Source of the DNA: Longimicrobiales bacterium
GTDB lineage: Bacteria > Gemmatimonadota > Gemmatimonadetes > Longimicrobiales > Gaopeijiaceae
Length of the DNA stretch: 54,633 bases
Assembly: GCA_029245345.1 (NCBI GenBank)
Contig: JAQWPM010000026.1
Span: forward strand, 1 to 54,633
Direction of reading: 5' to 3'
Shown: positions 36,497 through 38,453 of the stretch, piece by piece
Layout: the number at the start of each line of letters is the position of its first letter
How positions within the stretch are numbered: position 1 is the stretch's first letter
Translations under genes and position numbers: made by a program
Notes under the pieces: model-generated
Seen by the model: the letters and a program-made list of their open reading frames with translations, nothing else
Told to the model about the DNA's origin: nothing
Database searches by the model: none

Positions 36497-36539
36497 CATA
36501 TTCTCGGTTCGCCGCTTTCACGTGAACACTGAGAATATG
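36497..36539 (+). promoter_or_regulatory. nested palindromes over the rocD translation start
   Basis: CATATTCTCGGT (36497-36508) and ACTGAGAATATG (36528-36539) pair at 11 of 12 positions (the twelfth can be a G-U pair in RNA). The 19-base loop contains the perfect palindrome TTCACGTGAA (36517-36526). The right arm holds the likely ribosome-binding bases GAGA and the first ATG. It could be a repressor site in DNA or an RNA hairpin that hides the start. Confidence 0.55.
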
Positions 36540-36542
36540 ATC

Positions 36543-37757
36543 ATGAGCACAGCCACAGTGACCAAGACCGAGGGCCTCCTTACAGAGGTCGACCATTTCA
36601 GCGCGCATAACTACCACCCGCTCCCTGTTGTGCTTGAGCGGGGTGAAGGCTCTTGGGTCTGGGACGTCGAGGGCACACGATATCTCGACATGCTCAGCGC
36701 ATACTCGGCGGTCAACCAAGGTCACCGGCACCCCGCGATTATCGATGCCGCGGTTCAGCAGATGGGGATGCTCACGCTGACCTCTAGAGCGTTTCACAAC
36801 GACCAGATGGGTCCGTTCCTGAAGACGCTGTGCAAGGTGACGGGCTTCGAAAAGGCGCTCCCAATGAACACGGGCGCTGAAGCGGTCGAGACGGCGATCA
36901 AGATGGTCCGGAAGTGGGGATACAAGGTGAAAGGCGTTCCAGAGGGAAAGGCCGAGATCATCGTCTGTGAAAACAACTTTCATGGGCGAACCACGACCAT
37001 TGTCGGGTTCTCCTCAGAGGCACAGTACAAAGACGGCTTCGGTCCGTTCACTCCAGGTTTTGTAGAGATCCCATACGGCGACGCCGAGGCGCTCGAGGCA
37101 GCCATCAACGAGAACACCGTCGGCTTCTTAGTCGAACCTCTCCAGGGCGAGGGTGGCGTGGTGGTTCCCGCAGAGGGGTTCTTGGCCCAGGCGCGCGAGG
37201 TGTGCTCCGCCAACAACGTGGCACTTATTGCGGACGAGATTCAGACGGGCCTCGGTCGTACAGGCCGGATGTTCTGTTACGACTGGGAGGGCATCCGCCC
37301 CGACGTCCTAATCGTTGGAAAGGCGCTCGGTGGTGGAGTCTATCCGGTGTCCGCTGCCATCGCAGACGCGGAATTTATGGATATGTACACACCGGGGGAT
37401 CACGGATCTACCTTCGGCGGGAACCCGCTCGGCGCGGCGGTTGGACTCGCTTCGCTCGAAGTGATTCTCGACGAAGAGTTGGCAAAACGCTCGGACGAGC
37501 TCGGCACATGGTTCATGGAGGAACTCCGTAAGATCGATTCCCCTCACGTTGAAGAAGTGCGAGGGAAGGGATTGATGATCGGCGTGGTCATCAAGGAGTC
37601 GAGCGGCACTGCGCGCCCGTACTGTGAAGCGCTCCAAGCACGAGGGATCCTGGCCAAAGAGACGCACCACCAAGTGATCCGCTTCGCGCCGCCGCTAACG
37701 ATCTCGAAAGAAGATCTCGAGTTCGCCTTGGGACATGCAAAGGAAGTGCTCGCCTAG
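36543..37757 (+). CDS. rocD: ornithine aminotransferase
   Basis: RocD transfers the delta-amino group of ornithine to 2-oxoglutarate, giving glutamate semialdehyde, in arginine/proline metabolism. It is a class III PLP aminotransferase of 404 residues from ATG 36543. The family start SAHNYHPLPVVLERGEGSWVWD, MNTGAEAVETAIKMVRKWGY (cofactor phosphate site), NNFHGRTTTIVGFSS, VEPLQGEGG, IADEIQTGLGRTG and VGKALGGGVYPVSA (Schiff-base Lys) are all present. GTG 36522 and ATG 36537 are alternative starts. GAGA at 36531-36534 favours 36543 and is covered by the right arm of an inverted repeat. The paired palindromic element begins 10 bp after its stop. Confidence 0.94.
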   Translation: MSTATVTKTEGLLTEVDHFSAHNYHPLPVVLERGEGSWVWDVEGTRYLDMLSAYSAVNQGHRHPAIIDAAVQQMGMLTLTSRAFHNDQMGPFLKTLCKVTGFEKALPMNTGAEAVETAIKMVRKWGYKVKGVPEGKAEIIVCENNFHGRTTTIVGFSSEAQYKDGFGPFTPGFVEIPYGDAEALEAAINENTVGFLVEPLQGEGGVVVPAEGFLAQAREVCSANNVALIADEIQTGLGRTGRMFCYDWEGIRPDVLIVGKALGGGVYPVSAAIADAEFMDMYTPGDHGSTFGGNPLGAAVGLASLEVILDEELAKRSDELGTWFMEELRKIDSPHVEEVRGKGLMIGVVIKESSGTARPYCEALQARGILAKETHHQVIRFAPPLTISKEDLEFALGHAKEVLA

Positions 37758-37767
37758 GGAGCCCTGC

Positions 37768-37920
37768 GGGGAGGCCCGGCGGAGCTTTCGAAGGGGTCGT
37801 TCGCGGGGGCCGGGGTCGTGGCGTCGTCTGGTCACTGTGTCCGGGGTCCATTGCTACTCGTCCGCTCGCTATGCGAAGCGGAGCTTCGATACCCCTTCGA
37901 AAGCTCCGCCGGTCCTCCCC
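37768..37920 (+). repeat. palindromic repeat unit, copy 1
   Basis: The outer stem is 37768-37797 with 37891-37920 (29 of 30 pairs). The 93-bp core starts with the end of AAGGGGTCGTTC (37791-37802), has GTCGTGGCGTC at 37815-37825 and CGCTCG at 37863-37868. It ends in a 22-bp block (37869-37890) with an internal hairpin CGAAGC-GGA-GCTTCG. These core blocks recur in the same order, inverted, in copy 2. Confidence 0.85.
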
Positions 37921-37988
37921 TCCGGCTGTGTCGTGTGGGTCACAACGGCGCCGTGGGGGCACAGGCTTTTGTGACCCCAAGAGCGAGT

Positions 37989-38156
37989 GGGCGGGAGCGC
38001 GCGCGTCGCGCTAAGGGCAATCGAAGCTACGCTTCGCATAGAGAACGAGCGAAAAACGTGCAGCACCACACCGCAAGATCCCGGAAGAACCCACAGACGC
38101 CCACGACGAAGGACCCGAGTGAACGACCCCTTAGCGGGGCGCGTGCACTCCCGCCC
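37989..38156 (-). repeat. palindromic repeat unit, copy 2 (inverted)
   Basis: The outer stem is 37989-38017 with 38128-38156 (25 of 29 pairs), with a sequence different from the copy 1 stem. Read on the minus strand, the core contains the same AAGGGGTCGTTC, GTCGTGG(G)CGTC and CGCTCG blocks. The 22-bp block (38020-38041) matches copy 1 at 21 of 22 positions. The rest of the core is diverged. The unit ends 12 bp from the YggX-like gene's stop. Confidence 0.85.
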
Positions 38157-38168
38157 ATTCGAACCCAC

Positions 38169-38453
38169 CTACCATTCGATTGAGCCCTGTTTCGTCGTGT
38201 CGATGCCTTTGCCGTCGCCGTCACCGAGCAGCACGGTTTCGATCTGCTCGTACAGAAAGGCCCGTGCCTTCTGGTCTCTCGGGTCGAGACCGTAGTGGTT
38301 GATCAGCGAGGTCTGGTGCTGAAGCCACTCCTGCCAGCAATTGGTACAGATTTGGTTTGCGATCCGTTCACCTAGTTCGGTACGGAAGGGAGCTTTCGCG
38401 AGCTTCGCTGCATCCGCTCCGCAGCGATGGCATTGGATAGTGTCGGCGCTCAT
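38169..38453 (-). CDS. yggX: YggX-like Fe(2+)-trafficking protein with two CxxC pairs
   Basis: YggX protects iron-sulfur proteins from oxidative damage and may carry iron. The 94-residue protein matches the family along its length: FRTELGERIANQICTNCWQEWLQHQTSLINHYGLDPRDQKARAFLYEQIETVLLGD corresponds to the typical LGxRIxxxVSxxAWxxWLxHQTMLINExRL region. Ordinary YggX has one conserved N-terminal cysteine. Here there are CHRC at residues 8-11 and CTNC at 36-39, suggesting a four-cysteine metal site. It is divergent from fabH and convergent with rocD. Confidence 0.85.
   Translation of the reverse strand: MSADTIQCHRCGADAAKLAKAPFRTELGERIANQICTNCWQEWLQHQTSLINHYGLDPRDQKARAFLYEQIETVLLGDGDGKGIDTTKQGSIEW

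Follow-up and report, generated by a model that had tools for sequence, protein, structure and literature searches.

A family of long palindromes at gene 3' ends in one genus of Longimicrobiales, with outer stems that keep pairing while varying in sequence

We analysed a 54,633-nt stretch of DNA from a Longimicrobiales bacterium (contig JAQWPM010000026.1 of assembly GCA_029245345.1), referred to here as the window. In it, a rocD-like aminotransferase gene and a gene for a YggX-type Fe(2+) trafficking protein converge on a gap that holds two palindromic units, set face to face with a spacer between them. The initial annotation of the window had described two inverted palindromic copies, each with its own outer stem, and both are present where it placed them. 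The genes and the parts of the two copies are as follows:

36522..37757, plus strand: rocD-like aminotransferase class III; copy 1 lies behind its stop codon in sense orientation
37763..37925, plus strand: copy 1 (C26a), whole unit; covariance model match 37783-37905
37763..37796, plus strand: copy 1, 5' arm of the outer stem; 31/34 positions complementary to the 3' arm
37791..37802, plus strand: copy 1, left core motif AAGGGGTCGTTC
37869..37890, plus strand: copy 1, small hairpin block CTATGCGAAGCGGAGCTTCGAT
37892..37925, plus strand: copy 1, 3' arm of the outer stem
37926..37983, no strand: spacer separating the facing copies; its TGGGTCACAA / TTGTGACCCC motifs are also found next to other copies
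37984..38161, minus strand: copy 2 (C26b), whole unit; covariance model match 38005-38140
37984..38017, minus strand: copy 2, 3' arm of the outer stem
38020..38041, minus strand: copy 2, small hairpin block CTATGCGAAGCGTAGCTTCGAT
38121..38132, minus strand: copy 2, left core motif AAGGGGTCGTTC
38128..38161, minus strand: copy 2, 5' arm of the outer stem; 29/34 positions complementary
38169..38453, minus strand: YggX-type Fe(2+) trafficking protein (Iron_traffic/YggX); copy 2 lies behind its stop codon in sense orientation

The arms of copy 1 are 97% complementary over 30 nt (37768-37797 and 37891-37920), with the stem reaching 37763-37925, and those of copy 2 (37984-38017 and 38128-38161) are 85% complementary over 34 nt. 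The long stems first annotated (29/30 and 25/29 pairs) are therefore real but slightly longer than described. The pair does lie between the convergent stops, as claimed, but its stems start 5 nt and 7 nt past the stop codons of the rocD-like and yggX genes, not 10 and 12 nt. Copy 1 folds far better than its own shuffles (z -6.7) and copy 2 moderately better (z -2.9). Inside the stems, AAGGGGTCGTTC is identical in the two copies and the 22-bp hairpin block matches at 21 positions with one mismatch, both as annotated; none of 100 shuffles of the window contains any match to this block at <=3 mismatches. The blocks GTCGTGGCGTC and CGCTCG, also listed at the outset, are common to copies 1 and 2 but are not family-wide.

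The palindromic unit of the rocD-yggX gap is a member of a repeat family. In the window's genome (G000, 98% complete) the exact core is restricted to these two sites, and the exact small hairpin likewise to the rocD-yggX gap; the hairpin occurs once in G001 (94% complete), the only other genome of the same genus examined. A first covariance model, built from three copies (the two of the window and one of G001), found further copies. The second found seven copies in G000, five of them beyond the pair, and 16 in the sister genome G001, while 37 other relatives gave none; the third recovered the same 23 copies in the genus. The repeat family that had been proposed is thus seen with the models and not with the exact core. 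Covariance-model E-values of family copies reach down to 4e-18, and the other third-model matches in the 395 phylum genomes sampled have E-values of 0.03 and weaker and lack the family architecture. Among the weak matches outside the genus, L170 is a partial, gapped arm match and the others are essentially without an arm match. The viral contigs, phages and plasmids searched contained no family copies, and the hairpin patterns likewise gave no viral matches. Because copies occur in two genomes of one genus and none elsewhere is convincing, the family is confined to one genus within the genomes examined. It is previously unnamed, in keeping with the initial annotation. Nothing in Rfam 15 lies at or above the gathering score, and the sole match, the MIR8788 microRNA, is sub-threshold (21 vs 124 bits).

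Pattern searches gave further candidates. An exact gapped pattern run over genome contigs matched 24 stretches, which are genuine only in G001. Matches of a looser pattern in relatives (L006-L043) lack the architecture except for G001 copies and a different element in G029, some of the matches outside the genus being judged by the matched strings alone. The G029 element is a palindrome present in two copies (L010 ~1380-1540, L020 ~1440-1540), with arms TTACGACGGCACGGGGCC / GGCCCCGTGGCGTKCGTAAC that are conserved in sequence and a loop that varies in length.

Intact units of the family measure 141-178 nt (roughly 163 nt). An outer stem of 33-36 bp in most intact copies closes a loop of ~100 nt. 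It is followed by a left motif, which reads GGGCGCT in the majority of copies and GGTCGYT in the subfamily to which the window's copies belong; the pyrimidine-rich loop comes after this, and then a short-looped 6-bp hairpin. On the sense strand the loop contains 5-8% A and 30-38% T, becomes T/C-rich toward its 3' side and is G-poor in its 3' half. RNAalifold, applied to the loop on both strands, gave no convincing additional helix. A d(GCGNAGC) DNA mini-hairpin was considered as a conserved feature and dropped, since hairpin stem and triloop both vary in other copies. Just beyond the 3' arm of copies, a TGG-GGCAC-like motif recurs.

Eighteen copies lie behind a Pfam-supported gene in sense orientation, and for 16/18 the distance between its stop codon and the start of the copy is -2 to 19 nt (median 7 nt for the 17 copies tabulated). 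Against random placement in gaps, Fisher's method gives ~1e-10 for 17 copies, a value good to an order of magnitude only because gap lengths were entered by hand and some are approximate. Where copies are paired they face each other (8/8 pairs), and one pair sits in a divergent gap, ABC-F/MoxR. This closeness to stop codons and the facing pairs agree with the REP/BIME-like placement first suggested for the rocD-yggX gap. The upstream genes have no evident common function, and single copies have no partner within up to ~10 kb per side.

The outer stems covary among the further copies, the point fixed beforehand as a test of the repeat-family claim. In the 23-copy alignment, which was fitted to the tested structure and so is biased in its favour, standard pairs occupy 93.5% of paired cells (73.2% in shuffles), both sides have changed at 16/20 pairs, and covariation scores 0.559, compared with 0.173 for shuffles and 0.047-0.125 for slid controls; both stems, the outer stem and the 6-bp hairpin, covary. 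Direct comparison of arm against arm agrees, giving 681 matches, 86 mismatches and 7 gap columns over the copies (~90% complementary). Compared between copies, the 5' arms have an identity of 0.71 at the inner end, which drops to 0.29-0.34 over positions 13-24, against a composition-based expectation of 0.30. Long stems that keep pairing while losing sequence identity pose a puzzle in hairpin evolution.

Related copies share parts of their stem sequence, and between close paralogues or relatives double stem changes outnumber single ones. The TolB/NUDIX locus is occupied in both species, with loops that are 81% identical; between these putative orthologues, pairing has survived a change of both arms at 14 stem positions, a single arm differs at 1, and 14/17 changed stem positions are altered on both arms. 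Five close comparisons, which are few, overlap and are not all independent, contain 16 double transversions and 17 double transitions. Two-step compensation through G-U pairs favours transitions, yet transversions are about as common, and simultaneous copying from arm to arm may therefore reasonably be inferred. Concerted changes on both stem arms through template switching have been described for RNA hairpins (PMC8794818); those hairpins belong to RNA genes such as rRNA, whereas the present case would be a dispersed intergenic palindrome. With 23 copies, loci common to two species and close paralogues rich in double changes that include transversions, template-directed arm correction becomes directly testable. 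One copy, C79a (L159:9174-9294), is broken: its 3' half is close to that of C7a and its 5' arm is unrelated, a mosaic that points to recombination among copies.

The convergent rocD-yggX gap is conserved across the bacterial family; in 16 relatives it measures ~11-130 bp and has no element. The sister species, where the gap carries a T-tailed hairpin, is one of them. G000 lacks a counterpart of the G001 copy at the VOC/peptidase locus. Two loci have the element in one species and lack it in the other, and some are occupied in both; the family is therefore persistent and yet subject to turnover. The pattern of presence and absence could also be loss, and because the gaps have diverged, a target duplication or an exact insertion boundary cannot be defined. 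At 7-16 copies per genome, the family is small for a REP-like mobile element. The RAYT-type transposase suggested at the outset was not found: the Y1 transposase model (PF01797) has no match in G000 or G001 and is present in 6/24 genomes searched. The reverse transcriptase model (PF00078, RVT_1) also lacks a match in G000 and G001, and a trans-acting reverse-transcriptase source may lie elsewhere. On contig C21 of G001 (L163, L160), four short-loop copies lie within ~55 kb, which suggests local spread.

REP elements are intergenic, lie close behind stop codons in convergent and co-directional gaps, and form dimers of opposite orientation (PMC3733652); ribosome stalling is reported for REPs lying <=15 nt from a stop codon (PMC12306157). 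The present family resembles REP/BIME elements of the GTAG and CGTC families in lying within ~20 nt behind stops in convergent or co-directional gaps, in its opposite-orientation dimers and in being species-specific, but its units are 141-178 nt (20-40 bp for REPs), its 33-36 bp stem has a middle without sequence conservation, it numbers 7-16 copies, and it comes with no Y1 transposase match. No shared GTAG/CGTC tag was seen beside the stem or the small hairpin, flanks and loops being inspected by eye alone. With REP-like placement and facing pairs, but the wrong unit size and no Y1 match, the family is therefore REP-like in location and not REP. The two units facing across a spacer recall REPINs mobilised by RAYT; unlike those, the family has no short conserved REP unit, and its genomes have no PF01797 match. 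It occupies gene 3' ends in a REP-like manner in a lineage where RAYT was not found.

ERIC/RU-1, RU-2 and other MITE-type palindromes are recognised by conserved sequence, whereas in this family the outer ends are variable and pairing alone is kept. They share with the family a size of 100-200 bp, the long imperfect palindrome and an intergenic site (see PMC2759123). The conserved terminal inverted repeats of a DDE-derived MITE are absent (mean identity 0.33 at outer-end positions 31-36 vs 0.30 expected), as are the R'/R'' boxes that an integron attC site has at its outer ends, which here are not conserved. An intrinsic terminator differs in that the family has a loop of ~100 nt and inspection revealed no T-tract behind the stem, and a retron or group II intron derivative differs in that PF00078 has no match in G000 and G001.

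We lean towards the view that the rocD-yggX pair belongs to a genus-restricted, non-autonomous set of dispersed REP-like palindromes that live at gene 3' ends and whose stem is renewed by arm copying plus selection. The conserved core and fold would be what a trans-acting system recognises as copies spread, and what is required of the outer stem would be its shape, not its sequence. Template switching at a quasi-palindrome, in which one arm serves as template for the other, probably renews the pairing of the stem; selection would remove units whose stem stays broken. At a gene end the hairpin may serve as a structure at transcript ends or beside ribosomes, a role reported for REPs. Mobility, transcription, function and effects on host genes are properties that we infer for the family from its sequences.

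The main observation that the arm-copying view leaves unaccounted for is a strand asymmetry, which simple arm-to-arm copying does not predict. Stem mismatches read on the sense strand are A-C more often than G-T (33 vs 17) and pyrimidine-pyrimidine more often than purine-purine (30 vs 6; combined p ~2e-5). The strand antisense to the upstream gene thus retains pairing better, and its loop is also purine-rich. The working form may be antisense RNA or single-stranded DNA, or else the asymmetry may be a mutational bias. A tentative proposal, which we rate as rather doubtful, is a repeat built mainly around a stem of nearly fixed length and free sequence that stays palindromic through its own arm copying, each copy thereby carrying its own stem sequence. 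Such a repeat would be recognised through its shape, perhaps as single-stranded DNA or as RNA of the antisense strand, and the recognising system would be neither RAYT nor reverse transcriptase.

The same purine-rich antisense loop and mismatch bias would suit multicopy non-coding RNA genes antisense to the neighbouring gene; each facing pair would then be two RNA genes diverging from promoters within the spacer. A motif around TTGTGNCCC / CCGTGCCC also recurs just past the stem, on what would be the start side of such RNAs. We consider the RNA-gene reading unlikely: a sigma-70-like promoter was not found in the rocD-yggX gap, a T-tract after the stem was not seen by eye, Rfam gave no match, the base asymmetry could be mutational, and it is not evident why RNA genes should end within 0-20 nt of the stop codon of another gene.

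That last feature, sense placement directly behind stop codons, would instead be expected of a dedicated module for transcription termination or mRNA 3' ends, selected through the upstream gene and not mobile, and the G-poor, C/T-rich 3' half of the loop could load Rho. This reading is improbable given just 7 and 16 copies per genome with no common gene function, one pair in the divergent ABC-F/MoxR gap, and stem mismatches that are worse on the sense strand. Terminator-like sites, moreover, are equally frequent with and without the element (4/14 element gaps vs 13/56 other convergent gaps); the idea that elements replace terminators was rejected on this count, as such sites are no rarer beside elements.

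It is very improbable that the outer stems are host terminator hairpins invaded by the core, so that the element targets palindromes. Over ~18 nt, and with their order swapped, the arms of copy 1 resemble those of the rocD terminator in the sister genome, but the arms of an unrelated copy score the same, and a terminator origin of the copy 1 stem is accordingly disfavoured. Stem length is also nearly fixed, and related copies share stem sequence. The initial annotation had left open whether the element targets a palindrome or brings its own; the shared stem parts favour the second, and the likeness of the copy 1 stem to the sister terminator is at chance level. Chance likeness of GC-rich hairpins, to which the exact core blocks occurring only twice in the genome might have pointed, is refuted by the E-values, the strong covariation and the 0/100 window shuffles matching the block.

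Other repeats lie next to some copies. The spacer between the facing copies of L154 contains a tandem repeat of ~50 bp (CAACCCCCGTGCCGCCCAGCGCGAACAGCCACAARCAGCAGCCGGGCRC), and CTCGCTTCGCATCGC-type repeats occur downstream of the TolB-locus copies in both species (L153 and L157).
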